DNA of 30,803 nucleotides from the IMG/VR virus record IMGVR_UViG_3300028745_000335, positions 1 through 30,803 of that record. The stretch is one strand, 5' to 3'. A program made the translations under genes and the position numbers. Positions 3,812-30,803 of the stretch are shown here, in pieces; position 1 is the stretch's first letter, and every line of letters starts with the position of its first letter. The notes beneath the pieces were generated by a model, which saw only the letters and a list, made by a program, of their open reading frames with translations, was not told where the DNA came from and did not search any database. Source of the stretch: a virus.

Positions 3812-5311
3812 ATGCCCGCCACCCCCGTTCACCACACAGCGACCGACGATGGCACGTGGGATGGCCCGGCCCAGGAGAAGAAGCTCAAGACTCCGCTGAC
3901 CACCACGGCGGGCGACGACACGTTCGCCTGGGTCGACGACAGCGACGATGCCGACCCCACCACGAAGTCGGCGTGGAAGTTCATCCACCACTTCGTTTCC
4001 GACGCCGGCCTGCCCGGATCCGCCTCGACGCTCGCCTGCTCAACCGGCATCGGGATCCTCAACGGGGCCCGGACCGGAACCACGATTCCTGACGCCGACC
4101 GAGAGGGCGTCTGGAAGCACCTCGCCGCTCACCTGAAGGATGCCGGCGTGAAGGAGGAAGACGTGCCCGAACTCGAATCTGCCACGCCGCCGGACGAGAC
4201 CCGTGCCGCATCCGACAACGACTGCAGCCGTTGCAACGGTGAGGGGACGGTCAGCCTCAATGACTCGGATGTCGAATGCCCACAGTGCGGCGGTACGGGC
4301 ACAGGCGAGAACAACGCCGACGAGCTGAGCCATCGACCGCCGGCCACGGCAATCCGTGGCGAGCTGCGTGGCGTTCCGGAGTCCCGGGTGTCCACGGGCC
4401 CCAAGTTCGAGCTGCGGGAGGTCCCGAATGGCACCGGCGGGACGAACCTTCGCTTCACCGGCTTCGCCTCGACCACCGACACCGAGTACGAGATGGAGGA
4501 TTGGCTCGGCCCCTGGGTCGAGTCGGTCAGCTCCGGGGCGTTCGGCAAGACCCTGTCTGAAGGGGCGGACGTGGCGTTCCTGCTCAACCACCAGGGCATG
4601 ACGCTGGCCCGGACCAAGCCGGGGACCCTGAAGCTCTCCGAAGAGACCGACGGCACGAAGAGTCCCATCTACGGGATCACCGGGCTGCACTCTGAGGCCC
4701 TGCTCGATCCGACCAACATGTACGTCCAGGCGATGCGCTCGGCCGTCGACCGTGGCGACCTGGACGAGATGTCGTTCGCCTTCCGGGTGATGCGCCAGGA
4801 GTGGAACGACGAGTACGACCGGCGGTGGATCAACGAGGTCAGCCTGGACAAGGGCGACGTGTCCCTCGTCAACTACGGGGCCAACCCGACCACTGGCGGG
4901 ACGGTGTCGATGCGGCAGCGGGTCACGGGCCGAACCGAGGATCCGTCTGGCATCCCGATGGTGATTCTCCTGCGACGCTCCGCACTCTTCCGCCAGCTGC
5001 GGGAGGGCAAGGTCCTCTCGGCGGCCAACTCAGAGGAGCTGCAGAAGGCCCTCGAGGCGCTCCACGCTGCCGACGATGCCGACATCCCCGGCATCGTCCG
5101 TGCGCTCCAGGACATCGACACCGCCGTGGACGCCGGCATGGCCGGGATCTCGACCGTCCTCGACACGGCGAACCCCGACGGGGACACCGGCGACCTCGAG
5201 CCGGCGCTGGTGCCCCCGACCGCCAGTGCCCTCGTTCTGCCCGACTACGGCGATGAGGCCAGGGCTGCCCTGGAGACACTCCGTCACGGACCTCGAAGGG
5301 GTGCGGCATGA
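3812..5311 (+). CDS. Prohead protease with extra N-terminal domains
   Basis: Serine protease that matures the prohead, HK97 type (peptidase S78 family). The protease domain spans about residues 212-360: LRFTGFAS, VSSGAFGKTL, LLNHQ with the catalytic His (H260), and EMSFAF with the nucleophile Ser (S321), followed by LVNYGANPTT. At 499 aa it is far longer than a usual prohead protease (about 200 aa). Residues 50-120 form a separate compact domain of unknown role (WKFIHHFVSDAGLPGSAS...IGILNGAR...WKHLAAHLKDAG). Residues 138-163 hold two CxxCxGxG knuckles (C138, C141, C156, C159), like a DnaJ-type zinc centre. Residues 380-499 are helical and may act as scaffold. The final TGA overlaps the next ATG (ATGA), so translation is coupled to capsid protein 1. 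Confidence 0.93.
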   Translation: MPATPVHHTATDDGTWDGPAQEKKLKTPLTTTAGDDTFAWVDDSDDADPTTKSAWKFIHHFVSDAGLPGSASTLACSTGIGILNGARTGTTIPDADREGVWKHLAAHLKDAGVKEEDVPELESATPPDETRAASDNDCSRCNGEGTVSLNDSDVECPQCGGTGTGENNADELSHRPPATAIRGELRGVPESRVSTGPKFELREVPNGTGGTNLRFTGFASTTDTEYEMEDWLGPWVESVSSGAFGKTLSEGADVAFLLNHQGMTLARTKPGTLKLSEETDGTKSPIYGITGLHSEALLDPTNMYVQAMRSAVDRGDLDEMSFAFRVMRQEWNDEYDRRWINEVSLDKGDVSLVNYGANPTTGGTVSMRQRVTGRTEDPSGIPMVILLRRSALFRQLREGKVLSAANSEELQKALEALHAADDADIPGIVRALQDIDTAVDAGMAGISTVLDTANPDGDTGDLEPALVPPTASALVLPDYGDEARAALETLRHGPRRGAA

Positions 5312-6777
5312 CCGACACGATGACCAACGGCCAGAAGGAAGACGTGCTGGAAGGCGCACTCGAGGTGCTCCTCGCTGGCGACGACCAGGGCGGCTACTAC
5401 TACGCCTACGTCCTCGACTTCACGGACACGTGGGTCGTCTACTCGTCGTATGAGGGGACCTACCAGATCAGCTACACGATGGACGACGACGGCACCGTGG
5501 CCTTCACCGGCGATCCGGAGCCCGTCTACTCCGTGACGACCTACGAGCCGGTGAAGGAGTCCAAGAACGCCGGCCCGCTCGAGCGTCGAGGCGGCCCCAA
5601 CATGCGACTCCGTGCCCGGATGGTCGAGTCCAGCCAGGGAGCCACGGTCAAGGTCCGCTCCGAGCCGCTCACCTACTCGCGGTGGGGACGGGACTCGTTC
5701 TACCGGGACCTGATCCTCCGGGACCGGGTCGACGGCGCAGCCGGCCGGCTGCGCCGCCACGCCCAGGAGATGGACGTGATCTCCAAGGAGCAGAACGCCC
5801 GGTCGCTCCGGTCGCTCCGGTCTGGTGAGATCGAGTACCGGGTCGAGCCGAACCGGACCGACGGGGAGGGCGGGTACCTGGCGCCACCGGCATGGCTCAA
5901 CCAGCTCTTCGCCACCGCTCCCCGCCCGGACCGGATCCTCGCCTCGCTGATCCCCGGCACCTTCGCACTGCCCCAGGGGTGCTCCTCGGTCAACCTCCCG
6001 ATCATCCAGACCGGCACTGCGGTCCAGCCCGTCGCCGATCTCCAGGCTGACCCCAGCCAGGACATCACGGATGCCCCTGGGTCCTCCACCGTGGTCACCC
6101 TGTCGGGTCACGCCGATGTCTCGGTCCAGTCGCTCGAGCAGAGCCCGACCGGAGCCCATCTGGACTTCGCCATCTTTGCCGACCTCTCGTCGGCCTACGA
6201 CGCCCAGCTGGAGACGCAGCTGCTCGTCGGCGGTGGTATAGCGATGAACCAGATCCTGGGGGTGGCCAACGTCGGCACTCCGGTCGCCTACACCGACGGC
6301 AGCCCGTCGGGCTCGGAGATGTACCCCATCTTCGGTCAGACGGTCGCTCAGCTGGCCAATGGACGGAACCGCCCGCCGGAGGCGTGGATGGCCCGTACGG
6401 CCCGCTGGGCATGGTTCACGACCCAGGAGGACACCGCCGGCCTTCCCTTTGGTCTGCCGAGCCCCTTCTATATGGGATCGGATTCCGAGACGCCGGATCC
6501 CCTCGGCGGCCTGCTCGGCTTCCCGCTCTTCGGCAACGAGGCGCTCCCGGCCAACCTCGGTGCCGGCGGAAACCAGGACGAGATGATCTGTCTCCGCCCC
6601 AGTGACCTACTGCTCTTCGAGGCCCAGCCGACCACGGCCGTCATGCGGGATCCGGGATCCGGAGCCCTCTCCGTCCGCCTCCAGCTGCACAACCGCGCAG
6701 CTGCCATCACGAACAGGTACCCGTCGGGTATCTGCGTGGCCGGCGGCACCGGCTTCGTCGTCCAGTCCAACTTCTAA
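5308..6777 (+). CDS. Major capsid protein 1 (HK97 fold)
   Basis: HK97-fold capsid protein, 489 aa. The core begins at about residue 118 with SEPLTY and continues with FYRDL, RHAQEMDV (150-157), EPNRTDGEGGYLAPP, SSVNLPI, LEQSP, YTDGSP and the C-terminal GTGFVVQSNF. These blocks are shared with the second capsid gene at 7042, so the two are paralogues. The N-terminal 97 residues differ: instead of a coiled-coil delta domain there is a Tyr-rich, acidic beta domain (GGYYYAYVLDFTDTWVVY at 28-45, YQISYTMDDDG at 52-62). Proteolysis by the upstream protease near residue 95-105 is inferred. The gene is joined to the protease by an ATGA overlap, and its stop is only 5 bases before a tRNA gene. Confidence 0.92.
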   Translation: MTDTMTNGQKEDVLEGALEVLLAGDDQGGYYYAYVLDFTDTWVVYSSYEGTYQISYTMDDDGTVAFTGDPEPVYSVTTYEPVKESKNAGPLERRGGPNMRLRARMVESSQGATVKVRSEPLTYSRWGRDSFYRDLILRDRVDGAAGRLRRHAQEMDVISKEQNARSLRSLRSGEIEYRVEPNRTDGEGGYLAPPAWLNQLFATAPRPDRILASLIPGTFALPQGCSSVNLPIIQTGTAVQPVADLQADPSQDITDAPGSSTVVTLSGHADVSVQSLEQSPTGAHLDFAIFADLSSAYDAQLETQLLVGGGIAMNQILGVANVGTPVAYTDGSPSGSEMYPIFGQTVAQLANGRNRPPEAWMARTARWAWFTTQEDTAGLPFGLPSPFYMGSDSETPDPLGGLLGFPLFGNEALPANLGAGGNQDEMICLRPSDLLLFEAQPTTAVMRDPGSGALSVRLQLHNRAAAITNRYPSGICVAGGTGFVVQSNF

Positions 6778-6782
6778 CCCTG

Positions 6783-6857
6783 AGCGGGGTGGAGCAGCGG
6801 TAGCTCGCCTGGTTCATACCCAGGAGGTCGCCGGTTCGATTCCGGCCCCCGCCACCA
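6783..6857 (+). tRNA. Initiator-like tRNA-Met (CAT), copy 1
   Basis: A complete cloverleaf with encoded CCA. Acceptor 6783-6789 pairs with 6847-6853, D arm 6792-6806, anticodon arm 6808-6824 (loop TTCATAC, anticodon CAT at 6815-6817), variable loop 6825-6829, T arm 6830-6846, discriminator A 6854, CCA 6855-6857. It resembles bacterial tRNA-fMet: the first acceptor pair is a mismatch (A1 against C72) and the D stem has A11:U24, both initiator features. The anticodon stem has only two of the three G:C pairs typical of initiators (29:41 is T:A). The gene lies between two capsid genes in the same orientation, 5 bases after a stop codon. It is probably part of the late transcript and released by RNase processing. 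Confidence 0.9.
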
Positions 6858-6872
6858 GGTGCGCCCAGCACC
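6858..6872 (+). other. Hairpin directly 3' of tRNA copy 1
   Basis: GGTGC (6858-6862), loop GCCCA, GCACC (6868-6872): a perfect 5-bp hairpin that begins at the base after the tRNA CCA. No T-run follows, so it is a poor terminator. It could protect or mark the 5' end of the downstream capsid mRNA after tRNA processing. The rest of the interval up to 7041 shows no gene apart from the ribosome binding site of the next gene. Confidence 0.5.
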
Positions 6873-7041
6873 GTCACACGTAGCCCTGGGCTTTCTGTGC
6901 AGCAACCCGCGCCGGACCCCAATCGACGACCGCCGGACCGCCTCCGGGCGGCACCACCGTCGCCGAGTGAGCGGCACCACCCGGGCAGACAACCACCCAC
7001 TGCCCGCCGTTCCGGCGCGCCCACCCAAGAAAGGGGGCACC

Positions 7042-8673
7042 ATGCCTCCCACCACCACGGAGCCCACGCTCCTCGACAAGCTGTACGAGCAGCGCACGAC
7101 CATGGTCGACGCCTGGTCCGAACTCGTCGCCGCCCGCGAGACCGAGCGTGCCTCCTTCGAGGAGCGCCGCAACTCGGCCGACGAGGCCCAGCGTCCTGAC
7201 GAGGCCGCCATCGAGCTCTACCGCTCGGCCGAGGCCGCGTTCAAGGCCGACTCCGACCAGCGCAAGGCCGAGATCAGCGAGCAGGACCTGCGGATCGCCG
7301 ACCAGGAGGACATCGTCCGCCGTCGGGCCGAGGCCGCCAAGGCACACCGGGGCGTCCCGGTGGTCACCTCCGAGCCCCTGACCTACCGCCGGGACAACGG
7401 CCGAGGCATGGAGGGGATCTCGTACTACCGGGACCTCGCCATCACCCAGGTCGAGGGCGTCACCTTCGCCACCACGACCCGGGACCAGTCCCTCGCTCGC
7501 CTGACCCGACACGCCCAGGAGATGGACGTCGAGATCCCGAGGCGGGTCGAGGCGGCCCAGGCCCGGGCCCGGGCAGCGCTCGACACCCCGGACTCCCGGG
7601 GCGGAAGCCTGCGGGGCATCAACCCGTTCCACCAGGGGGCGAACTACAACCCCGTGGAGCAGCGGGTCGAGCCCGGACGGACCGACGGCTACGGCGGATA
7701 CTTCGTGCCGCCCCTGTGGATCCCCGAGGAGTACATCCCCGGGCTGCGCGCCCACTCGGTGGCCGCCGACCTGTGCCGCCAGTTGGACCTGCCCCCGGGC
7801 ACGGACTCCATCAACATCCCGAAGCTGGCCAACCTGACTGCGGTCGGGTACCAGACGGCCGACAACTCCGGAGTGCTGTCGCAGGACTGGTCGGACACCT
7901 TCGTCCAGGCCAACGTCAAGACGGCCGCCGGCCAGTCCGACGTCGCCCTGCAGCTCCTCGAGCAGTCGCCCAACGGGATCACCGATGAGGTCATCACGAC
8001 CGACCTCATGGCCGCCTACAACCAGTTCGTCGACCAGCAGGTGATCGCTGGCGACGGGGTGGGGACCGGGCAGCTGGCCGGCGGTCACATCCAGGGCCTG
8101 TACCCGGCGAACAACTGGGGCGCCAACGCAGTCACCTACACGGACGGATCCCCCACGGGGCAGCACTTCGTGTCGGTGCTCGGCGTCATGGCGTCGCAGA
8201 TCGCCCGCAACCGCTTCGACCTGGCGAACCTCAAGTTCGTCCTCAACGGTCGTCGGTGGTTCTGGTACGCCACGTCGCTCGACACCAACGGCCGCCCGCT
8301 GGTGAACTCGCAGGAGGGGTCGCCGTACAACATCCCCGCCGAGATGCTCGCCGAGCTGCCCGCCGAGGGCCTGTCGGGGACGACCAACTTCGGCGCCCCG
8401 GTGTACGTGGACGACAACGTGCCGACCAACGACACCTCCGGTGGCGGGTCGAGCCAGGACGTCGCCATCGCCGCCCTGTGGGACGACATGTGGCTGTTCA
8501 AGGGTGACCTGCGGACTGCGGTCTACCGGGAGGTCCTGTCGGGATCTCTCGGCGTCCGGTTCCAGGTCTACAACTACTTCGCCTTCCTGGCGAGGTACGG
8601 ACAGTCCATCGCCATCGCCACCGGTTCCGGCTTCGCCGCCCCGCAGGGTTCCGTCTCCACCCTGCTGTTCTGA
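7042..8673 (+). CDS. Major capsid protein 2 (HK97 fold)
   Basis: Second HK97-fold capsid protein, 543 aa. ATG at 7042 follows a strong GAAAGGGGG at 7029-7037; this is far stronger than the signal for capsid protein 1 and suggests high expression. Residues 10-105 are a charged, heptad-patterned coiled coil, the usual delta (scaffolding) domain. The core starts at SEPLTY (110-115) and runs through YYRDL, RHAQEMDV (156-163), EPGRTDGYGGYFVPP, DSINIPK, LEQSP, YTDGSP, VRFQVYNYFAF and GSGFAAPQG. Core blocks match capsid protein 1, but many positions differ, so the duplication is old. Upstream, the frame is open to 6859, but no good start exists before 7042. A strong hairpin follows the stop. Confidence 0.95.
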   Translation: MPPTTTEPTLLDKLYEQRTTMVDAWSELVAARETERASFEERRNSADEAQRPDEAAIELYRSAEAAFKADSDQRKAEISEQDLRIADQEDIVRRRAEAAKAHRGVPVVTSEPLTYRRDNGRGMEGISYYRDLAITQVEGVTFATTTRDQSLARLTRHAQEMDVEIPRRVEAAQARARAALDTPDSRGGSLRGINPFHQGANYNPVEQRVEPGRTDGYGGYFVPPLWIPEEYIPGLRAHSVAADLCRQLDLPPGTDSINIPKLANLTAVGYQTADNSGVLSQDWSDTFVQANVKTAAGQSDVALQLLEQSPNGITDEVITTDLMAAYNQFVDQQVIAGDGVGTGQLAGGHIQGLYPANNWGANAVTYTDGSPTGQHFVSVLGVMASQIARNRFDLANLKFVLNGRRWFWYATSLDTNGRPLVNSQEGSPYNIPAEMLAELPAEGLSGTTNFGAPVYVDDNVPTNDTSGGGSSQDVAIAALWDDMWLFKGDLRTAVYREVLSGSLGVRFQVYNYFAFLARYGQSIAIATGSGFAAPQGSVSTLLF

Positions 8674-19005: not shown

Positions 19006-20649
19006 GTGACCTTCATCTTCCCCGACGAGCAGTCCGACCCGACCTACCCGGGCCAGGCCCTGACCGATTCCGTCGACCTCGGATCCCTGGCCGGCGCTAT
19101 TGCCGGCACCGGGATCGTGTCCGGCTGTGCGGTCACAGCGCTCGACTCGCCAGCGATGGCCGTGGCCGTGGCCGCCGGGTCGGCCCTGATCGGCGGATCG
19201 CCGGTGACCGTCAACGCCAACGCCGACCTGGCCATCGCCACGGCGTCGTCGCACGACCGCCGGGACATCGTCGTGGTGGACGACTCCGGGGACCCCTCGG
19301 TGGTCGCCGGAGATCCCTGCTTCGTGGCCAACTGGGTGCCCGACGGGGTAACCCTCGGCCCGGTCAAGCCGGCCGTGCCCAGTGGCTTCGCCCTGATCGC
19401 TGAGGTATACGTGGCCGGTGGGATCACGTCGATCACGAACGGGGCCATCGTCGGCAAGCAGCTCGTGCCGCCGTCCGGCGGTGGGGGCGGCGGTGCACCG
19501 ACCCTCAGCCTGTCGTACAACGGGAACGGACCGGTCGAGTGCCAGGTGCTCAACGGGTTGTCGTGGAACCCGGCCGTCGGCGGCTTCCTCGACGTCGTCC
19601 TACCGGGCGCACTGTCCGGGTTCCCTGTCGACATCCCGGCGGTTGCGGAGGTCAATGGCAGCGGTGTGATCCAGGGATTCGCCGTCACGTTCTTCAACGA
19701 GGGCAGTGGGCTCACCCTGGTCTACGGACCGACCGGGAACCAGGTCGGTACCACCGTTCCCGGACTCAGAGTCGAGGGCAGCTCCGCCCCGGGCAACACC
19801 AACAGCGGTGTCGATGCCGTCGCCGGACAGCTCCTCGTCAACACCGACGACGGGAGCCTGTGGGTCTGCACGACCGGCTACGACCCAGATGGCCCTGTCG
19901 ATGCCGTGTGGTTTACATCTGGATCGAGTGCCACCGTCCTCGATCTCTCCTACGGCGGTAGCGGTCCCTTCTCCGTCCCAGTAACGAGCACTCCGGCTGG
20001 GTACACGCCGGGTGACGGTATCGTCACCCTCGATGCCCTGTTGACCGTCGGGACCAACATCGGCTCGGGTCTGCTGCTCGACGCCAACAGCAATCCGATT
20101 CCCGACGGATGGACGTTCCCCGCCGTGATCTTCGTAGAGGGCAACACCATCTACGACATCATCGCCACGAACGGCTACACGATCGACAGTGCCCAGGGCG
20201 GGCTCATCTCATGGGGGGCATCGGGCGGGGCACCTGTCCCGGTCCCGCTGCCTGGTGGACTCACCACCCCCGGCGTGGTCGTCATGTCCAACCTGCCCAC
20301 CTCCGACCCGTCGAACGCCGGCCAGCTCTGGAACCACAACGGCACAGTCGTGGTCAGCGGCACCAGTCCGGCTACGCACACGCTCACCGGGTCAGTGGGC
20401 GGGACGGCGGTGCTCACTGAGGTCAACCCCGGCACCTACCTCAAGCAGTACACGATCACGCTCAACGCCTTCGATGACGCCGGTGGGCAGACGTTCACCT
20501 TCGCCACCCCGTTCGCTGTGGAGGGGGCCTGGTCCACCACGAACGGCCTCGGGTCCTACACGCCTACACCAGCGGGGCTCACCACGTCGATCACGCTACC
20601 CGCCACCGGCGGTGCGCTGACCGGCGTGATCGTCCTGACGGGGGTCTGA
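19006..20649 (+). CDS. Large minor tail / fibre protein
   Basis: 547 aa from GTG 19006 with GAGGAG upstream. Residues 1-160 share the layout of the preceding protein (AVAVAAGSALIGGSPVTV, RRDIVVVDDSGDPSVVAGDP, SGFALIAEVYVAGGI). A Gly hinge (SGGGGGGAP) at about 163-171 separates it from several Gly/Thr/Val-rich beta modules, each beginning with a similar phrase (LSLSYNGNGPVECQV and LDLSYGGSGPFSVPV), so the body has at least two repeats of one module. A small strand domain of the type WNHNGTVVVSGT closes the protein. A receptor-binding or tip appendage role is inferred. Confidence 0.72.
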   Translation: MTFIFPDEQSDPTYPGQALTDSVDLGSLAGAIAGTGIVSGCAVTALDSPAMAVAVAAGSALIGGSPVTVNANADLAIATASSHDRRDIVVVDDSGDPSVVAGDPCFVANWVPDGVTLGPVKPAVPSGFALIAEVYVAGGITSITNGAIVGKQLVPPSGGGGGGAPTLSLSYNGNGPVECQVLNGLSWNPAVGGFLDVVLPGALSGFPVDIPAVAEVNGSGVIQGFAVTFFNEGSGLTLVYGPTGNQVGTTVPGLRVEGSSAPGNTNSGVDAVAGQLLVNTDDGSLWVCTTGYDPDGPVDAVWFTSGSSATVLDLSYGGSGPFSVPVTSTPAGYTPGDGIVTLDALLTVGTNIGSGLLLDANSNPIPDGWTFPAVIFVEGNTIYDIIATNGYTIDSAQGGLISWGASGGAPVPVPLPGGLTTPGVVVMSNLPTSDPSNAGQLWNHNGTVVVSGTSPATHTLTGSVGGTAVLTEVNPGTYLKQYTITLNAFDDAGGQTFTFATPFAVEGAWSTTNGLGSYTPTPAGLTTSITLPATGGALTGVIVLTGV

Positions 20650-20651
20650 TC

Positions 20652-21938
20652 ATGACTACTGCCGTTGCTGTTGTCTGGGATAACTCTAGTAAGCGTTACT
20701 ATCCATTCGATCTCAATACCTACTCTTTTGGTTCTGCCTACGGCAGTGCCAGTTTGTCAGACATAAATACGAATCCTGCGCCCACACCTGACGGGAAAGC
20801 CTTCATCGCCCTGGATGGAAATCATGTTGTGCTGATTAGTACCACCGGAGCATGGCCGGACGCATACGTTACTCAACCCGACCAACGGGCCGTTGCAGTT
20901 TCCCCAGATGGATCGACGGTCTGGGTAACAGACTACTCTGCTGGCACTGCCCATCCATATGCCATCGACACAACGGCGGGTACTATCACGGCAGGCACTC
21001 CGTTGCCAGTAGGCCCACAGGCGTTTGGCCTCGCCATCACCCCCGATGGAGGCACACTGATCGTCGGTTTCTACAATAGTTCGGGGAACATTTCGTTCTA
21101 CGATATTGCCACTAGGACCCTGATTCGCACTGTGGCATCGGGCACTACATACACCTACTGTATGGTAGTTTCCCCTGATAGCTCAACGGTGTACGTTAAT
21201 GGCTTCGTAACGGACACCATCGTTCCCATTGACATCTCGACCGGTGCTGTGGGCAGCTTCACAGCACCGACGGAGCTGCAGGAAATCAATCAAATGGCCA
21301 TTGACTCCGGTGGCCAATGGCTTGCTACTGCATCTTTGCACACCGGTGGGGGGGCGATGATAACCGCACAGTCTCTCCCCGGCGCTGGGCTTCTGCTATT
21401 TGAAGAACTAGACCTGAATCCGAACACCAACTCCGTATCGTTTGCTCCTGACAGAGAGCATGTTCTATTCGCCGTTGAAGACGGTCCCCTATGCACTTAT
21501 GAGACCGCAACGTGGAACTTGGTAAACAGTGACGATACTCGCAGTGACCCCAATGCGACTTTTCTCCCTGACCAGGCACCAACGGCGTCGTTTACCAGCA
21601 TTATCGCTGGTTTGTCTGTTGCATTTACCGATACATCTACATCGCCAGCGGGGACCATCGTCGACTGGGCGTGGGACTTTGGGGACTCCAACACCTCGAC
21701 CGCCCAGAACCCGACCCACGTCTACGCAGCGGGTGGGACCTACACGGTCACGCTGACGGTCACGAACTCGGCCGGGACCTCGACCACGCAGACCTTCACC
21801 GGACAGACAGTGAGCAACAACGGTGGGCCGAGTGCTATGGCTAGTCAGCCTGTGACGGTATCTGCATCTGGCCCACCCCTCGGGTCCTGGTCCAAGGCAT
21901 CCCAGTCGAACTGGTCCGGCCAGGGACCGGTGGTGTAA
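20652..21938 (+). CDS. Beta-propeller tail protein with PKD domain
   Basis: 428 aa. Residues 1-300 carry repeated blades of the YVTN/SMP-30-like type: VAVSPDGSTVWVTDYSAGTA (81-100), GLAITPDGGTLIVGFYNSSG (126-145), MVVSPDSSTVYVNGFVTDT (171-189) and SVSFAPDREHVLFAVEDG (261-278). Residues 310-382 are a PKD domain (SFTDTS-type strand, WDFGDSNTSTAQNPTHVYAAGGTYTVTLTV). The last 30 residues are Ser/Gly-rich. Codon use is unlike its neighbours: G+C on sampled lines in the first 1 kb is about 47%, against about 67% for the line at 21721. The change falls at about residue 330-335, inside the PKD domain. A receptor-binding function is inferred. Start ATG 20652 has weak ribosome signals. Confidence 0.82.
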   Translation: MTTAVAVVWDNSSKRYYPFDLNTYSFGSAYGSASLSDINTNPAPTPDGKAFIALDGNHVVLISTTGAWPDAYVTQPDQRAVAVSPDGSTVWVTDYSAGTAHPYAIDTTAGTITAGTPLPVGPQAFGLAITPDGGTLIVGFYNSSGNISFYDIATRTLIRTVASGTTYTYCMVVSPDSSTVYVNGFVTDTIVPIDISTGAVGSFTAPTELQEINQMAIDSGGQWLATASLHTGGGAMITAQSLPGAGLLLFEELDLNPNTNSVSFAPDREHVLFAVEDGPLCTYETATWNLVNSDDTRSDPNATFLPDQAPTASFTSIIAGLSVAFTDTSTSPAGTIVDWAWDFGDSNTSTAQNPTHVYAAGGTYTVTLTVTNSAGTSTTQTFTGQTVSNNGGPSAMASQPVTVSASGPPLGSWSKASQSNWSGQGPVV

Positions 21939-24455: not shown

Positions 24456-25394
24456 ATGCCCGACCTGGTCTTCCCCGACATCAGCAACTACCAGCCCGAC
24501 GTCGACTTCGCCGCCCTCCGGGCCGGCTACCCGGTGCTGGCGTGCCAGATCAGCTGGGGCACCGCCATCACCGTGCCGGCGGGGCGCATTACCGCCATCC
24601 GGGCGCAGGGGTTCACGTGCGTGGTCTGGTACATGGGGCTCCGGGCGGACCAGGCCATCGCCCCGCAGGTCGGGGCGTTCACCCAGACGCTCGGGCCCCT
24701 GCTCCCCGGTGATGCCGTCTGCATCGACTGGGAGGAGACCCCAGGGGCAGGCACCCCGAACGCTGTCCAGCGGGAGCAGGCGGCGACGCTGATCGCCTCC
24801 ACGCTCGGGATGGATCGCTGGCACGTCGGCACCTACGGCCCGGCATCGCTGCTCGAGCAGTCGCCGCCCCCGTCGTGGGCCTGGCCGGCCAGCTACGAGA
24901 CCGCCGAGCCCACGATCCCCCACGTCGCCTGGCAGTACACCGACGGGGTCTACGTCTCGGCCGGTCTCGGCCCGGTCGACTTCCCCGGCATCGGGAAGTG
25001 CGACGCCTCGATCGCCCACGTGACCGCCGCCGAGTTCGCCGCCACCGTCTGTCGCACCGTCCAGCCACCTGCCCCACCGACTCCGGAGGAATCCATGGCC
25101 GTCTCACCGTGTCTGTCGTTCAAGTCTGGCCAGCAGGACGTGGTCCAGGTCGCCAACGGCGAGCTGATCCACTGGTGGGAGAAGACCGGATCCGGCGAGT
25201 GGAGCAGCGAGGTCATCATCGGCCCGACCACGCCGACGGTGTCGTCCGCCGTGGCCACCATCCCCGACCAGGTCCCGCAGGTGTCGCTGGTCGGTGGCAA
25301 CAACGTCATCTGCGTCGAGGACTCGACCGGGAACCCGTGGATCTTCTCCCAGGCGGCAGCGCCGGGAGGCGGGTGGGGAGACAACAAGCTGTGA
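24456..25394 (+). CDS. Endolysin, GH25 muramidase with C-terminal binding domain
   Basis: 312 aa; GGAAGG ribosome site before ATG. Residues 1-200 resemble glycoside hydrolase family 25 lysozymes, which cut peptidoglycan MurNAc-GlcNAc bonds: FPDISNYQPDVDF with the N-terminal conserved Asp (D8), VLACQISWG, and CIDWEETPG with the D-x-E pair (D91, E93) of the catalytic site. After a Pro-rich linker (PPAPPTPEE, 204-212), residues 214-312 form a domain with VSPCLSFKSGQQDVVQVANGELIHWW and PWIFSQ, like half of a lectin-type beta-propeller, presumed to bind the cell wall. An in-frame ATG at 25095 with its own ribosome site begins this domain. The stop overlaps the next gene (GTGA). Confidence 0.87.
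   Translation: MPDLVFPDISNYQPDVDFAALRAGYPVLACQISWGTAITVPAGRITAIRAQGFTCVVWYMGLRADQAIAPQVGAFTQTLGPLLPGDAVCIDWEETPGAGTPNAVQREQAATLIASTLGMDRWHVGTYGPASLLEQSPPPSWAWPASYETAEPTIPHVAWQYTDGVYVSAGLGPVDFPGIGKCDASIAHVTAAEFAATVCRTVQPPAPPTPEESMAVSPCLSFKSGQQDVVQVANGELIHWWEKTGSGEWSSEVIIGPTTPTVSSAVATIPDQVPQVSLVGGNNVICVEDSTGNPWIFSQAAAPGGGWGDNKL
25095..25394 (+). CDS. Probable internal start: endolysin C-terminal subunit
   Basis: Inside the endolysin gene and in the same frame, GGAGG (25085-25089) lies 5 bases before ATG 25095 (codon 214 of the endolysin). This is one of the best ribosome sites of the region and sits exactly at the domain boundary after the Pro-rich linker. It would give a 99-aa binding domain alone, beginning MAVSPCLSF. 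Such internal starts are known to make a separate binding subunit for other endolysins (Lys170, CTP1L). Confidence 0.6.
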   Translation: MAVSPCLSFKSGQQDVVQVANGELIHWWEKTGSGEWSSEVIIGPTTPTVSSAVATIPDQVPQVSLVGGNNVICVEDSTGNPWIFSQAAAPGGGWGDNKL

Positions 25395-25831
25395 TCGCCT
25401 CAGCCCTCCTCGCCGAGTGGTACGAGGTCGCCGGCATCGTCATCGCCGTCCCCGTGGCACTCGCCATCGTGTGGGCCATTGTCCGGGCCGTCGGTCACCT
25501 GACCCGGGTCCATGAGGCCATCATCGGTCGCCCGGAGACCTCATTCTCGGAGGCCATCCCTTCGATGATCGAGCGGTTCCACTCCATCGACGACCGGTTC
25601 GCCACCGTCGACCTGCACCTGTCGGACCAGGACGCATCCATCCTGGCCATCGAGTCGGAGTTCACGACCAACGGCGGGAGCACCGTGAAGGATGACCTGA
25701 AGAAGTTGCAGGCGATGCTCGACAGCGTCGCGGACAGACAGGCCGAGACGGCGCGCCTCGCATCGACCGCCGTGGACAAGCTCGACGCCGCCACGGCCGA
25801 CCGTCACGACATCGCCGAGGCCGCTCGATGA
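25391..25831 (+). CDS. Membrane protein with coiled coil (DUF2746-like)
   Basis: 146 aa from GTG 25391. Residues 12-35 form one transmembrane helix (VAGIVIAVPVALAIVWAIVRAV), followed by a long charged region with heptads to residue 140. The motif TTNGGSTVKDDLKKLQAMLD (90-110) resembles the DUF2746 family found next to holins of mycobacteriophages. A role as holin partner or spanin-like protein is possible. The last codon overlaps the next ATG (ATGA), so it is coupled to the holin. Confidence 0.72.
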   Translation: MIASALLAEWYEVAGIVIAVPVALAIVWAIVRAVGHLTRVHEAIIGRPETSFSEAIPSMIERFHSIDDRFATVDLHLSDQDASILAIESEFTTNGGSTVKDDLKKLQAMLDSVADRQAETARLASTAVDKLDAATADRHDIAEAAR

Positions 25832-26156: not shown

Positions 26157-26900
26157 ATGACCACCACCGACACGGAACCCCGCTACAAGCTCGGCCTGAT
26201 CCACGACCCGCTGCCGTCGATCGTTCCCGACCTGGAGTGCTTCGCCACCGCCCCCATCCCCGTGCCGCCGCCCACGGTGGCTGCGCCGGAGGTCGAGTGG
26301 CCGATGGCCGACAACGACACCCTGGGGGACTGCACCATCGCCGGTGCGGTCCATCTCGACCAGGCGGGTGCGGCCGTGACGGACGAGCCGTGGACCTACC
26401 CCGGCGATGTCGTGGTGAGCCGGGTCTACCTGGGGCTGACCGGCGGCCCAGACACCGGCCTGCAACTCCCACAGGTCCTCACCCCGTGGAAGACGCCCGG
26501 GCTCTTCGGAAGCCAGAACGGCGGCTTCGCCTCGGTCAACGTGAAGAACACCACGCTGGTCAAGCAGTCGGTATGGATCTTCGGTGGGCTCTACATCGCC
26601 GTCAACCTGCCGGCGGTAGCCCAGCAGCAGTTCCGCCCGAACGGGTCCGGGGTGTGGGAGTTGACCGGCACGCCGGCCGACTACGACATCGAGGGCGGCC
26701 ACTGCGTGGCCCCGGTGGGCTACACGCCCAAGGGCGTCATCGCCGTCACGTGGGGGTCGACGGTGCTCATCACCTGGCAGTGGTGGCACACCTACGTGGT
26801 CCAGGCGTACGCCGTGGTGCCGCCCGCCTTCGTGACCAAGGGCGGCGACGCCCGGGGCTTCGACCTGGCGGCGATCGACGGCTACCTGAAGGTGGCGTGA
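26157..26900 (+). CDS. Papain-like fold protein
   Basis: 247 aa from ATG 26157 (GAGGAGA upstream). It belongs by eye to a family common in actinobacteria and their phages with a papain-like layout: NDTLGDCTIAGAVHLDQ with the presumed nucleophile C59, WIFGGLYIAVNLP (140-152), GGHCVAPVGYT with H182, and VTWGSTVLITWQWW (197-210). The third catalytic position (Asn before Trp-Gly in papain) is Thr198 here. Activity is therefore uncertain. Substrate could be the peptidoglycan stem peptide or a host protein. It lies after the lysis genes and starts the accessory cassette. Stop and next ATG overlap. Confidence 0.68.
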   Translation: MTTTDTEPRYKLGLIHDPLPSIVPDLECFATAPIPVPPPTVAAPEVEWPMADNDTLGDCTIAGAVHLDQAGAAVTDEPWTYPGDVVVSRVYLGLTGGPDTGLQLPQVLTPWKTPGLFGSQNGGFASVNVKNTTLVKQSVWIFGGLYIAVNLPAVAQQQFRPNGSGVWELTGTPADYDIEGGHCVAPVGYTPKGVIAVTWGSTVLITWQWWHTYVVQAYAVVPPAFVTKGGDARGFDLAAIDGYLKVA

Positions 26901-27067
26901 TGGGCGAGCGGATCTGGGATGACGCCGAGGCACTCGACCAGATAGCCGACATCCTTGGGCTCTACACGACCGACCCCGACAACAACCCGGTGGCCGGTGT
27001 CCTCAACGACATCACCTCGTACGTGCAGAACACCGGGCGCTCGACCGACGTGCCCGAAGGAGCGTGA
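26900..27067 (+). CDS. Small hypothetical protein (55 aa)
   Basis: ATG 26900 overlaps the previous TGA by one base (TGATG). Residues 1-55 begin with an acidic helix (ERIWDDAEALDQIADILGLY) followed by a loop and a short helix (VAGVLNDITSYVQNT). No family is recognised. Its TGA overlaps the GTG start of the next gene, so it is translated in the same chain and may act with the phosphorylase-like protein. Confidence 0.6.
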   Translation: MGERIWDDAEALDQIADILGLYTTDPDNNPVAGVLNDITSYVQNTGRSTDVPEGA

Positions 27068-28098
27068 CCATGGCCGACGCCCTCCTCGAGCGCCTGACGG
27101 CGCCAGCAGCTGCCCAGGACCAGCTCGCGCCGATCCCCTGGCCGGCCGGGCTCGCCCCGACGCCGATCGACATGGCGCCGGTCGACCCGTCGGTCCCGCT
27201 GCCGAAGGCCGACGTTCTCGTGGTCACCTGGACCGCTGCCGAGGCTCAGGCCCTCTCCGACATCCTGACGCCGGGCCACCAGGTCTACGGGTGGGCGAAG
27301 TACGCCGAGCACTGGGACGCCTACCGGCCCCAACTGACCGGCCGATCACCGGCCCGGGACGCCGAGTGCATGGCCACCTACCAGCTGACCCAGATCGGCT
27401 CCAAGCGGGTCCTGTGCGTCCACTCACAGCTTCACCTGGCTACGGACGGGGCATCGGCCCCGATCGTTCAGCTGTGGGCGCAGATGGTCGCTGAGGTGCA
27501 GCCGTCCCTCGTCATCACCACGGGGACGGCTGGCGGCATCGGGATGACCACGGAGCTCGGTGACGTCTTCATCTGCAACTCGGCCAAGTTCAACTGCACG
27601 AAGACGTTCGCCGGCAAGCCGTGGGCCCAGCAGCGGTTCATGAACACTTTCACCCCCACCGGACCGAACCTCGAGCTGGCCCGGACATCGCTGGCCCAGA
27701 TCAACGCGGCGCAGCTCCCCGACCACCTGACGCCAAGGGATCGGACGTACAACGGCATCCCGGTCATCGTGTTCATCTCCGACAACACCGGCGACGTCGA
27801 GACCGTTGACTACTTCGGCTTCGACGACACCGACGACAGCTACGGGGTCGTGAAAGACGACCCCCAGGCCCACACCGAGGAGATGGACGACGCCACGCTG
27901 CCGCTGGCGCTGTCGAGCTTGACGGATCCGCCGGCATGGCTGTCGATCCGCAACGCCTCGGACCCGGAGGTGCCGTCGTCGATCGGCACGCTCGAGGAGC
28001 AGTCGAAGTGGGCGAGCAACATCTACCAGCAGTACGGCTACTGGACCACGGTCGGAAGCGCCATCACATGTTGGGCCGTGATCGCTGATCTGCAGTGA
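27064..28098 (+). CDS. Nucleoside phosphorylase/nucleosidase-fold protein
   Basis: 344 aa from GTG 27064. The core has the layout of the purine nucleoside phosphorylase / MTA-SAH nucleosidase superfamily: a first strand ADVLVVTW (49-56), SLVITTGTAGGIG with the phosphate/ribose loop GTAGGIG (154-160), then LGDVFI (165-170) as in the GD-V strand of MTAN-type enzymes, and later VIVFISDNTGDVETVDYFGF. The first 45 residues are Pro-rich. The C-terminus has a conserved-looking helix WASNIYQQYGYWTT. The substrate is not predictable. In a phage late region it could act on a nucleotide signal or on NAD-related metabolites; this is speculation. Stop overlaps the next gene (GTGA). Confidence 0.7.
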   Translation: MTMADALLERLTAPAAAQDQLAPIPWPAGLAPTPIDMAPVDPSVPLPKADVLVVTWTAAEAQALSDILTPGHQVYGWAKYAEHWDAYRPQLTGRSPARDAECMATYQLTQIGSKRVLCVHSQLHLATDGASAPIVQLWAQMVAEVQPSLVITTGTAGGIGMTTELGDVFICNSAKFNCTKTFAGKPWAQQRFMNTFTPTGPNLELARTSLAQINAAQLPDHLTPRDRTYNGIPVIVFISDNTGDVETVDYFGFDDTDDSYGVVKDDPQAHTEEMDDATLPLALSSLTDPPAWLSIRNASDPEVPSSIGTLEEQSKWASNIYQQYGYWTTVGSAITCWAVIADLQ

Positions 28099-28634
28099 GC
28101 CCGCTCACCGATCTGTCGACACTCGACCAGTTCGCAGCGGAGCCGTTCCCGCCCGAATGGCCGACCGACGTCCGCACCTTCTACTCGCCGGTCGACGACG
28201 TCCATGGCGTCCTGATGGCGGTCATCAGTTCGGCCAGCGAGTCGATCGACGTGGCGATGTACGGCTTCGACGACGCGTCCCTGGTTGCCGCTCTGGTGGC
28301 GGCGATGAAGGACCCGGCCATCACCGTGCGCCTCACTTTGGACAGGTCCCAGGCATCCGGGGCGCACGAGAAGGAGCTGCTGGCCGCGGCCGGGCTCACG
28401 ACGACGGACATCAGCGTCGGGACGTCGGAGAAGGGCGGCATCATGCACCTCAAGGCGGGGGTGATCGACGGCACCGTGCTCTTCGATGGCTCGACGAACT
28501 GGTCCGACAGTGGTGAGGACCAACAGGACAACCAGCTCCGGGTCGCCGTCTCCCCAGTGGAGTGCGCCCGGCTGTCGTCTCGCATCGACACCATCCACGC
28601 CTACCAGCTGGCCCACCCGAAAGGAACACCATGA
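28095..28634 (+). CDS. Phospholipase D-fold protein (probable nuclease)
   Basis: 179 aa from GTG 28095. It carries one HKD motif, MHLKAGVID (H118, K120, D125), followed by GSTNWS (132-137), as in single-domain PLD enzymes of the Nuc type that work as dimers. Earlier strands are SIDVAMYGFDDASLVAALV (50-68) and VRLTLDRSQ (78-86), the standard PLD-domain start. No signal peptide is visible, so it acts in the cytoplasm. The substrate (DNA, RNA or phospholipid) is unknown. The gene is coupled to the phosphorylase-like gene by a GTGA overlap and overlaps the next start by 4 bases. Confidence 0.82.
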   Translation: MSPLTDLSTLDQFAAEPFPPEWPTDVRTFYSPVDDVHGVLMAVISSASESIDVAMYGFDDASLVAALVAAMKDPAITVRLTLDRSQASGAHEKELLAAAGLTTTDISVGTSEKGGIMHLKAGVIDGTVLFDGSTNWSDSGEDQQDNQLRVAVSPVECARLSSRIDTIHAYQLAHPKGTP

Positions 28635-29101
28635 AAACCACCCTTCGAATCCCGGGGTTCTCCCCGGCGGCCTCGCAGGTCATCGCTCACTACCTGGCCA
28701 TCTTCCTGCTGGCCTTCGGGGCGCAGCTGGTGGCCGGCGCCACCCACGTCGTGTCGATCCCAGCCCTGATCGCACTGCTCACCTCGGCGGCCGCCGCTGG
28801 GGTCACTGCCGTGGCGCACGTCATGCTCGGGCTCATCCCCGTACCGCAGCCGTTGCCGGCACCGGTGGTCGGAACCCCATACAACGTGCTCGGGATCACA
28901 CTGAAGGTGAATACCGCCGGCTACCAGTTCCTCGTCTCGGTTCTCGTGACCTTCCTCAGCATCTTCGGTGCCCAGCTCGTCGGAGGCGCTGCCGGCATCA
29001 CCTCATTGCCGTCGGTCGTCGCCCTGATCCTGGCTGCCATCACAGCAGCCGTGGCCGGGATCGTACAGTTCGTCGTCGGGCTGATCCCAGCGCCGAAGTG
29101 A
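28631..29101 (+). CDS. Membrane protein with internal duplication
   Basis: 156 aa; GGA ribosome site before ATG 28631. Two copies of a two-helix hairpin, offset by 83 residues: FGAQLVAGA (29-37) and FGAQLVGGA (112-120), each ending with GLIP (67-70, 150-153). Together four membrane helices are predicted, joined by a Pro/Gly-rich loop (71-98). No family is recognised; a second holin, pinholin or other pore is a reasonable guess. Its stop overlaps the next start (GTGA). Confidence 0.75.
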   Translation: MKTTLRIPGFSPAASQVIAHYLAIFLLAFGAQLVAGATHVVSIPALIALLTSAAAAGVTAVAHVMLGLIPVPQPLPAPVVGTPYNVLGITLKVNTAGYQFLVSVLVTFLSIFGAQLVGGAAGITSLPSVVALILAAITAAVAGIVQFVVGLIPAPK

Positions 29102-29208
29102 AGCGGCTGGCGTTCTACGCCGCCGTGGCGCTGCTCGGCCCGGTCTACTTCGCCATCGGCGTGGTGGACGGGGTCCGCAAGGCAATGACCAATCGGTGGA
29201 ACATCTGA
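29098..29208 (+). CDS. 36-aa single-helix membrane protein
   Basis: Starts at GTG 29098 overlapping the previous stop, and ends at TGA 29206-29208, whose A is also the first base of the tRNA. Residues 4-23 form one transmembrane helix (LAFYAAVALLGPVYFAIGVV), followed by a basic tail (DGVRKAMTNRWNI). The charge pattern and the overlapping junctions support a real gene. It might be a lysis accessory or a regulator of the preceding membrane protein; no evidence beyond position. Confidence 0.6.
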   Translation: MKRLAFYAAVALLGPVYFAIGVVDGVRKAMTNRWNI

Positions 29209-29283
29209 GCGGGGTGGAGCAGTAGGAAGCTCGCCGGGTCCATGCCCCGGAGGTCGCCGGTTCGATTCCGGCCCCCGCCACCA
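29208..29283 (+). tRNA. Initiator-like tRNA-Met (CAT), copy 2
   Basis: Cloverleaf with encoded CCA: acceptor 29208-29214 with 29273-29279, D arm 29217-29232, anticodon arm 29234-29250 (loop TCCATGC, CAT at 29241-29243), T arm 29256-29272, A 29280, CCA 29281-29283. It has the initiator features A1-C72 mismatch, A11:U24 and three G:C pairs in the anticodon stem. Odd points: base 33 is C instead of the nearly universal U, and base 37 is G. It shares 36 identical bases with copy 1 across the T arm and CCA. Its place beside the integrase makes it a candidate attachment site too. Function as a translating tRNA is less certain than for copy 1. Confidence 0.75.
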
Positions 29284-29576: not shown

Positions 29577-30803
29577 CTACCGGGCGAGCCCGGAGTCCAG
29601 CGCTCCGGCCGCCAGGAGGGCGTTGGCGTCAGTGTCGTGGGCGTAGATGTCGCTGGTCGTCGACACCTTGGCGTGGCCGAGGCGCCGGCTCACGGTGACC
29701 ATGGGGAGCCCAGCGGCGATGAGCTCGGTGGCCTGGTAGTGCCGGAGGTCGTGGAACCGGTAGGGCCAGCGGTCGGCGACCGTCACTGCCCGGCCGGATT
29801 CTTCCGCCTCCTCTGCCGTCACCTCCTCGAGGGCCTGGCAGTGCAGCCGGAATCGCCGGCTGATCACGTCGGGCATCTTCGGCACCGCCTGGTCGGGGTC
29901 GGGACCGAACGCATAGGCGTCGTCGGCCACCTCCACCATTGCGGCCCTGGCTTCTCGCTCGGCCCGGAGTCGCCACGCCGTGAGGGCGGCCAGCACCCGG
30001 GGCCCGGCCGGGATCACCCGCACCTGGTGGCTCTTCGGGTCCTTCACGCCCCAGTCCTTCCCCGCCTGCCAGACCGACCGCTGGACGGTGATGGTCTGTC
30101 CGTGCCAGTCGATGTCCGACCACCTGAGCCCGCACAGCTCACCCCGGCGTAGACCGGTCAGGGCAGCGGTCACGATGATGGTGGCCATGTCCGGGGCCCG
30201 CGAGAGCTCGGCGTGGTCGATCAGGGCGACGACCCGGGCCGGCGGCGGCACCTTGAGCTCTGACCGGGGCACCTTCGGGACGGTGGCCAGCTCGGCAGTG
30301 TTCGAGGCCACCCAGCCCCACTTCCGCCCCTGGCGCAGGGCGGCGAAGACGAGGCGGTGGTGGTGGTGCACCGTGGCCGGCGTCATCTCCCCGGCGATCA
30401 GGTCGGCGTACCAGCCGTCGAGATCCCGGGACGAGAGCTTGTCCAGCTTCTTCGGCCCGGGCCCGGCCGCCACCGCTCGAGCGATCGACCGGTACCCCCT
30501 GATGGTGGTGGGGCTGGCGCCGGTCCTCTCGCGCTGGTCGATGTAGGCGTCGACCAGGTAGCCCAGCGTCCCCTTCGACCCGCCGTACTTGCCGGCGGCA
30601 ATGTCGGCCACGAGCTGCGCCCGCCGGGACCGGGCGGTGCGGATTCCGGCGCCCCACTCCCGCCGGGAGTGGACGTAGGTGGTGGTCTCCTGGCGGCCCT
30701 TCTCGGCGTTGTAGGCCCGCAGCTCGTACGAGCCGGGGGACCGCTCACGGATGCCCGTCTCCCGAAGTCCCGGACTGGCTTCCTCGCCGCTCATGGTGCC
30801 CAT
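29577..30803 (-). CDS. int: Tyrosine-type integrase
   Basis: Site-specific recombinase, 408 aa. Catalytic set visible: R219 in TGLRRGEL, K257 in DPKSHQVR, H351 and R354 in FHDLRH, H377 in LGHAKVSTT, and nucleophile Y387 in SDIYAH. Residues 75-180 form the core-binding domain (LGYLVDAYIDQRERTGASPTT), and residues 20-50 resemble an N-terminal arm-binding AP2-like domain (GSYELRAYNAEKGRQETTTYV). The length is normal. The ATG is at the window edge (30801-30803), so a more distal start is possible. Integration into a tRNA gene is usual for this class, and a tRNA lies 294 bases from its 3' end. No excisionase is visible. Confidence 0.95.
   Translation of the reverse strand: MGTMSGEEASPGLRETGIRERSPGSYELRAYNAEKGRQETTTYVHSRREWGAGIRTARSRRAQLVADIAAGKYGGSKGTLGYLVDAYIDQRERTGASPTTIRGYRSIARAVAAGPGPKKLDKLSSRDLDGWYADLIAGEMTPATVHHHHRLVFAALRQGRKWGWVASNTAELATVPKVPRSELKVPPPARVVALIDHAELSRAPDMATIIVTAALTGLRRGELCGLRWSDIDWHGQTITVQRSVWQAGKDWGVKDPKSHQVRVIPAGPRVLAALTAWRLRAEREARAAMVEVADDAYAFGPDPDQAVPKMPDVISRRFRLHCQALEEVTAEEAEESGRAVTVADRWPYRFHDLRHYQATELIAAGLPMVTVSRRLGHAKVSTTSDIYAHDTDANALLAAGALDSGLAR

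Follow-up and report, generated by a model that had tools for sequence, protein, structure and literature searches.

A papain-like protein and a nucleosidase-fold protein encoded behind the lysis genes of a probable temperate siphovirus

What is the role of six tightly linked genes that lie between the lysis genes and the integrase of a virus, and that encode a papain-like and a nucleosidase-like protein? The question is raised by IMG/VR virus record IMGVR_UViG_3300028745_000335, a linear sequence of 30,803 bases with a G+C content of ~67%, which was analysed over its whole length (hereafter the window) and whose six-gene cassette occupies positions 26157-29208 of the plus strand. The window encodes a terminase, a portal, a head protease, two major-head-protein-like genes, tail genes, an endolysin and an integrase, and represents probably a temperate siphovirus of an actinobacterial host; this host is suggested by the G+C content, by a 74% match of the terminase-region DNA to Rhodococcus phage Shagrat, and by a relative in Nostocoides (see below). 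We put at about even odds (a probability of roughly 0.5) the reading that the cassette extends the lysis operon as an accessory part, is expressed late, and brings a protease and a nucleosidase to the membrane.

The papain-like protein, the nucleosidase and their pairing

The first gene of the cassette, P0001 (26157-26900, 247 aa), encodes a papain-fold cysteine protease-like protein. Its predicted structure (predicted local distance difference test score, pLDDT, 87.5) has the papain fold, with xylellain as best PDB match (E = 4.7e-8) and with procathepsin K and papain also among the matches. The putative catalytic residues C59 and H182 are kept in 83 of 83 aligned relatives; the search pattern used for the family accounts in part for the invariance of N53-C59, but not for that of H182. 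The asparagine of the catalytic triad is absent: position 197 holds V, and most relatives have V or I there. P0001 matched no Pfam family at an E-value of 1, nor did it reach the cut-off of Peptidase_C1 (PF00112). By alignment search the family was found in 187 viral loci, and it is rare among Actinomycetes (8 of 395 genomes). Single-sequence scans with P0001, P0003 and P0004 recovered no relatives from the viral collection, where only alignments reached any, and such a scan with P0003 recovered none from the genome collection; pattern-based scans of these collections miss divergent relatives.

The third gene, P0003 (27064-28098, 344 aa), encodes a predicted N-ribosyl hydrolase with the fold of the methylthioadenosine/S-adenosylhomocysteine (MTA/SAH) nucleosidases (MTAN), which belongs to the purine nucleoside phosphorylase (PNP) superfamily. 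Its model is of high predicted quality (pLDDT 89.7, predicted template-modelling score 0.92), and the top 24 PDB matches in a Foldseek search were MTAN or futalosine hydrolase, the best being the MTA/SAH nucleosidase 3dp9 (E = 2.7e-12, template-modelling score on the target 0.73). A sequence profile of 21 relatives also matches MTA/SAH nucleosidase (1.8e-11). Residues E60, S121 and D300 are equivalent to MTAN Glu12, Ser76 and Asp197, an equivalence that was partly aligned by hand; E60 and S121 are invariant and D300 nearly invariant in the 21 relatives. The position of MTAN Glu174, which contacts the ribose, holds D275 in P0003 and Gly or Asp in its relatives. Because of the structure and profile matches and the active-site equivalents, "nucleosidase" fits P0003 better than "phosphorylase".

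Wider nucleosidase alignments yielded bacterial relatives of P0003 and eight more viral loci; locus L169, whose nucleosidase falls in a bacterial clade and has a recombinase-like gene nearby, was dropped from the phage loci. Nine phage nucleosidases and the one from Nostocoides japonicum form a single clade in the tree (support 100/97), and a papain-like gene is present in all ten of these records or genomes: adjacent to the nucleosidase gene in four, separated from it by one to four genes in five, and distant in one. Three papain types occur as company of the nucleosidase in this clade. Among 21 viral loci that are related to the window and were reached through the terminase, G012 (56 kb, only distantly related) encodes a nucleosidase of 45% identity with a papain-like gene in front, in the order GH25 endolysin, four-transmembrane (TM) protein, papain-like protein, 55-aa gene and nucleosidase, the last two junctions overlapping by 4 nt. 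In N. japonicum, a papain-family gene (E = 1.8e-75), the sole one in the genome, is located 31 nt upstream of the nucleosidase, in a setting that looks chromosomal. Locus L166 has a Pfam C1 peptidase directly upstream of the nucleosidase, with a 4-nt overlap; this protein was missed by a PF00112 search of the genome collection, and its E-value of 2.6e-7 is from hmmscan of the called protein. The papain neighbours in L166 and L130 both pass the PF00112 cut-off. Directly upstream of the nucleosidases of L170 and L171, at a gap of 0-1 nt, lies a papain-like protein with a Cys, GGH, NSW pattern, a type recognised from its motif and from cultured relatives that carry the annotation cysteine protease, one of them with a recorded HHpred match to xylellain. 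An NSW-type gene is found downstream of the nucleosidase in L165, with three genes between, and papain-family members are found upstream of it in L167 and L172, with two and four genes between, respectively. The interval in L172 (6460-7619) encodes a Clp N-terminal domain-like protein and a transglycosylase with LysM.

The widespread papain family is present in 5 of 9 nucleosidase-bearing phage records versus 0 of 18 terminase relatives without nucleosidase (Fisher p = 0.002). The p-value is 0.005 when the window is left out and 0.007 when only records of 27 kb or more are counted; the control set is limited in size and includes fragments. Two near-identical records, L003 and L004, end before the cassette and were not counted among the controls. 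The reverse association does not hold, since the family scan covered 80 papain loci and none of them has a nucleosidase within ~6 kb of the papain gene.

Outside the phage clade, S8 subtilases share operons with the nucleosidases of Azospirillum, Mesorhizobium and a Bacteroidetes metagenome-assembled genome, and in an Acidobacteriaceae strain a C1 peptidase gene comes next after the nucleosidase gene. With papain-like, C1 or S8 subtilase genes accompanying nucleosidases in and beyond the phage clade, the protease partner of the nucleosidase is recurrent, and the type of protease varies. Three similar bacterial operons (L123, L131 and L135) encode a HAD hydrolase, a gluconate 2-dehydrogenase subunit 3-like protein, a GMC oxidoreductase-like protein and the nucleosidase, followed by a ~430-aa protein and/or an amidohydrolase and by an S8 subtilase.

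These data bear on a purely metabolic explanation, according to which the nucleosidase serves phage replication, by disposing of MTA/SAH or by recovering adenine, and the company of a protease is incidental. Such a role would agree with MTA/SAH nucleosidases being the closest fold and sequence relatives of P0003, and with the HAD and GMC-oxidoreductase genes in the operons of some bacterial relatives, but it leaves unaccounted for a papain-like gene in every record of the phage clade, adjacent in four, when the papain family is otherwise so rare among Actinomycetes genomes and control phage records. We therefore consider it improbable.

Architecture and surroundings of the cassette

The initial annotation described six genes linked end to end through five overlapping junctions, and this description holds: the six open reading frames (ORFs) overlap by 1, 4, 4, 4 and 4 nt. 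All were recovered with a positive score by a purpose-written gene caller based on codon usage, and with a third-codon-position GC of 0.84-0.94, versus 0.86-0.90 for the structural genes, they behave as resident coding sequence. The cassette starts 8 nt downstream of P0007 (25828..26148, plus strand), a 106-aa holin-like protein with three hydrophobic, putatively TM, segments, a homologue of which is located behind an endolysin-like gene in locus L044 (6e-13). The endolysin-like gene of the window (24456..25394, plus strand, 312 aa; phrog_291 endolysin, 3.1e-8) lies two genes upstream of P0007 and is followed by a holin-accessory-like gene for a 145-aa protein with one N-terminal TM segment (25394..25831, plus strand; phrog_15431 holin, E = 0.0064; phrog_9869, 1e-5). 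The cassette is contiguous with these endolysin and holin genes, and the situation in G012 is similar. A scan covering sigma-70-like promoters found none belonging to the cassette itself, and neither a promoter-like nor a plus-strand terminator-like site between the lysis genes and the cassette; given the 8-nt gap and no such separating site, late read-through transcription is the simplest inference.

At the other end, the final gene, P0006 (29098-29208), has its last base in common with the first of a tRNA-Met gene (29208..29283, plus strand; ARAGORN; 55.2 bits with Rfam), behind which a tyrosine integrase is encoded on the opposite strand (29577..30803; phrog_1, 6.5e-56); the initial annotation had overlooked both the abutting tRNA gene and the integrase. 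The tRNA-Met is presumed, from the adjoining integrase, to be the attachment site, which places the cassette between this site and the lysis genes. Temperate phages accumulate accessory genes in the region adjacent to attP.

The fold labels given to the remaining proteins stand as well as those of P0001 and P0003. P0002 (26900-27067) is a soluble protein of 55 aa, and the 55-aa gene in the same place in G012 has another sequence. P0004 (28095-28634, 179 aa) is a Nuc/NucT-like protein of the phospholipase D (PLD) fold with a single HxK(x4)D motif starting at residue 118; it matches PLDc_2 (PF13091, E = 6.9e-15) and the Nuc endonuclease 1byr in the PDB (1.8e-6). Its similarity to DrmC in PADLOC (6e-8) is a superfamily-level match, and an assignment as the DrmC of DISARM was rejected because no other protein of the cassette matches a DISARM model; a Pfam match to TCAD7 (E = 0.042) was below the cut-off and was not used. 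P0005 (28631-29101, 156 aa) has four hydrophobic segments in two repeats, its halves aligning with each other at E = 9e-14 in a two-sequence comparison, and P0006 (36 aa) has a single hydrophobic, putatively TM, segment. In L044, which is among the closest papain-family loci, a single ORF consists of two P0005-like repeats and a papain-like domain, and this fusion ties P0005 to P0001. The genes preceding the membrane-papain fusion in this phage lysis region (L044, 3877-5428) encode polysaccharide pyruvyl transferase-like and glycosyltransferase-like proteins.

The initial annotation took the six genes for an accessory rather than structural unit. None of the proteins showed a structural domain, and gene order is partly conserved in relatives: the papain-like gene precedes the nucleosidase in G012 and on the Nostocoides chromosome, and another papain-like gene stands directly before it in three phages. 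The outcome that the initial annotation named as refuting, genes scattered in related phages with no common order, is thus not what was observed. This conservation does not extend to the whole set, the PLD-fold protein P0004 and the 36-aa protein P0006 being seen in the window only.

Elsewhere in the window, a tRNA-Met gene at 6783-6857, between two head-protein-like genes, is near-identical to the one at 29208-29283, the last 35 bases being the same; it may once have served as an integration target or have arisen by duplication. The two consecutive major-head-protein-like genes around it (5308-6777 and 6859-8673; both phrog_2263) are ~34% identical over their shared part and could form a capsid with two major capsid proteins; L015 matches both (46% and 53%). 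The GC content falls to 0.56 at 20500-21500, inside a tail-region gene (20652-21938) that reads as a beta-propeller with a PKD-type domain and is perhaps a recent acquisition.

Papain-like genes in lysis regions and the proposed role of the pair

Papain-like genes are located in the lysis regions of other phages. Among cultured phages, relatives of the L171-type papain protein carry the annotation cysteine protease and lie in lysis cassettes of temperate actinophages: Arthrobacter phage Mufasa8 has the order lysin A, hypothetical protein, membrane protein, cysteine protease (gp26) and tyrosine integrase, and Gordonia phage Morgana has lysin A genes, a hypothetical protein, a cysteine protease (gp30), a holin, a membrane protein, lysin B, a repressor and an integrase. 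In two prophage-like loci of Actinomycetes, papain-family genes lie among tail and lysis genes, one of them overlapping an Amidase_2 gene by 4 nt. Finally, in the Komagataeibacter phages phiKM1 and phiKX2, which are inducible with mitomycin (PMC8566455), the papain-family gene overlaps a second gene that is followed by an integrase and/or tRNA. A Pfam match of the phiKX2 neighbour to Trypco2 (E = 0.007) was below the cut-off and was not used; this match and that of P0004 to TCAD7 would have hinted at conflict systems. In phiKM1 (L124, 5629-6808), HicA/HicB and a RelA/SpoT-family gene adjoin the papain-family gene near the integrase.

These similarly placed genes are the reason for regarding the cassette as an extension of the lysis operon. 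Its core would be the papain-fold cysteine protease and the MTA/SAH-nucleosidase-fold N-ribosyl hydrolase, which probably work together late in infection, when the six genes would be read through from the lysis genes. The small four-TM protein may tether the protease to the membrane, and the protease would act at or across the membrane once the holin has opened it; its targets may be envelope or host proteins, or the nucleosidase itself, which would thereby be switched on. The nucleosidase would cleave an adenine nucleoside or nucleotide present in the cell as it dies, and the PLD-fold protein may be a local addition that cuts nucleic acid or lipid.

Several observations weigh against this assignment to lysis. 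As judged from their residues, P0001 and P0003 are likely, not certain, to be active enzymes, since V197 replaces the triad Asn of papain and Asp275 replaces Glu174 of MTAN. The papain-like gene of L168 is ~28 kb away from the nucleosidase, the pair in L170 and L171 is located among apparent tail and head-completion genes, and some bacterial papain-family copies stand alone. In the PHROG annotation of 131 papain-family neighbours, which leaves most genes unnamed, endolysins were near a minority of copies only, so that the papain family cannot be regarded as always being a lysis gene.

The position of the L170/L171 pair, together with a Gp80 fibre gene (8e-21) that follows the nucleosidase in G012, raises the alternative that the two proteins travel with the virion, packaged or attached to the tail, and take effect on the host infected next. 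We judge this very improbable, given that no cassette protein has a structural domain and that the protease is encoded with the lysis genes, in the window as in cultured actinophages.

The initial annotation proposed defence, counter-defence or competitor exclusion, functions that are possible by analogy, defence resting on likeness at the superfamily level. A defence or counter-defence role as such found no backing: no PADLOC model matched the nucleosidase better than E = 0.013, the DrmC-like protein is without partners, the genes follow the lysis genes at 8 nt, and the actinophage relatives of the protease are lysis-cassette genes. A related explanation is that of a lysogenic-conversion or superinfection-exclusion unit, whose attP-proximal genes would be on in the lysogen and would kill the cell or block the entry of another phage, the nucleosidase being an effector that depletes nucleotides under the control of the protease. 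It would suit the location between the lysis genes and the integrase/tRNA, the HicAB and RelA/SpoT-family genes beside the papain-family gene of phiKM1, the S8 subtilases encoded with some bacterial relatives of P0003, and, by analogy, the conflict systems described elsewhere: in CBASS, Detocs and other systems, ATP is broken down by PNP-fold Cap17 effectors (PMC10952713, PMC12715507), and PNP domains co-occur with proteases in predicted bacterial conflict systems (PMC7159879, PMC8195603). However, the cassette is without a promoter-like site, repressor, sensor or immunity gene, no gap sets it apart from the lysis genes, and the subtilase operon on the Azospirillum plasmid also has oxidoreductase-type metabolic genes. 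Such a unit is therefore rather unlikely.

Tentatively, the recurrent pairing might represent an undescribed effector pair, in which a clade of phage MTAN-fold nucleosidases depends on a papain-fold partner as its activator; the trigger could be the collapse of the membrane, for instance, or a rival phage infecting the cell. The three papain types would be interchangeable and sometimes tethered to the membrane, with subtilases taking their place in some bacterial relatives. Papain-like genes in phage lysis regions have been annotated yet left unexplained, and their tie to the nucleosidase clade supplies a concrete, testable partner. The pairing suggests that late phage operons can hold protease-gated enzymes besides cell-wall hydrolases, and proteolytic activation, if true, would connect the late genes of phages with the logic by which bacterial immune systems combine a protease with a nucleotide enzyme.

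Comparison with known systems

With MTAN, P0003 shares the fold, the Glu12/Ser76/Asp197 equivalents and a TGTAGG core; it differs in being ~110 residues longer, in the change of Glu174 to Asp, in a structural-alignment identity of 10-18%, in falling into a separate phage clade and in its protease company. The Cap17 ATP nucleosidases of CBASS and Detocs belong to the same PNP superfamily (PF01048) and the same phage-bacterium setting, whereas P0003 has no co-encoded sensor, cyclase or SLOG partner in the cassette and is encoded by a phage, in its lysis region. P0004 has the single HxKxxxxD domain of the PLDc_2 family in common with Nuc/NucT and DrmC; in contrast to DrmC it has no DISARM partner in the cassette, and no close relative of P0004 was found in phages.

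P0001 resembles xylellain and other C1A papain-like proteases in its fold, in the positions of Cys and His and in the WG motif after the position of the third residue. It is distinguished from them by Val/Ile in place of the triad Asn throughout most of the family and, according to a hand alignment, by N53 in place of Gln19 of papain. The cysteine proteases of actinophage lysis cassettes belong to another papain subfamily than P0001, which is the one without the triad Asn. Cassettes of the Mufasa8 and Morgana type also differ in lacking the nucleosidase: tblastn of three nucleosidase members, P0003 among them, against 50,697 phage records gave no match, leaving the cultured phages without a nucleosidase relative. 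P0004 had no tblastn match in these records either. Mufasa8 gp26 and Morgana gp30 nevertheless share with P0001 the papain-like Cys/His protein encoded after lysin A with 4-nt gene overlaps, and both phages are temperate, as the virus of the window probably is, and carry the protease gene near a tyrosine integrase.

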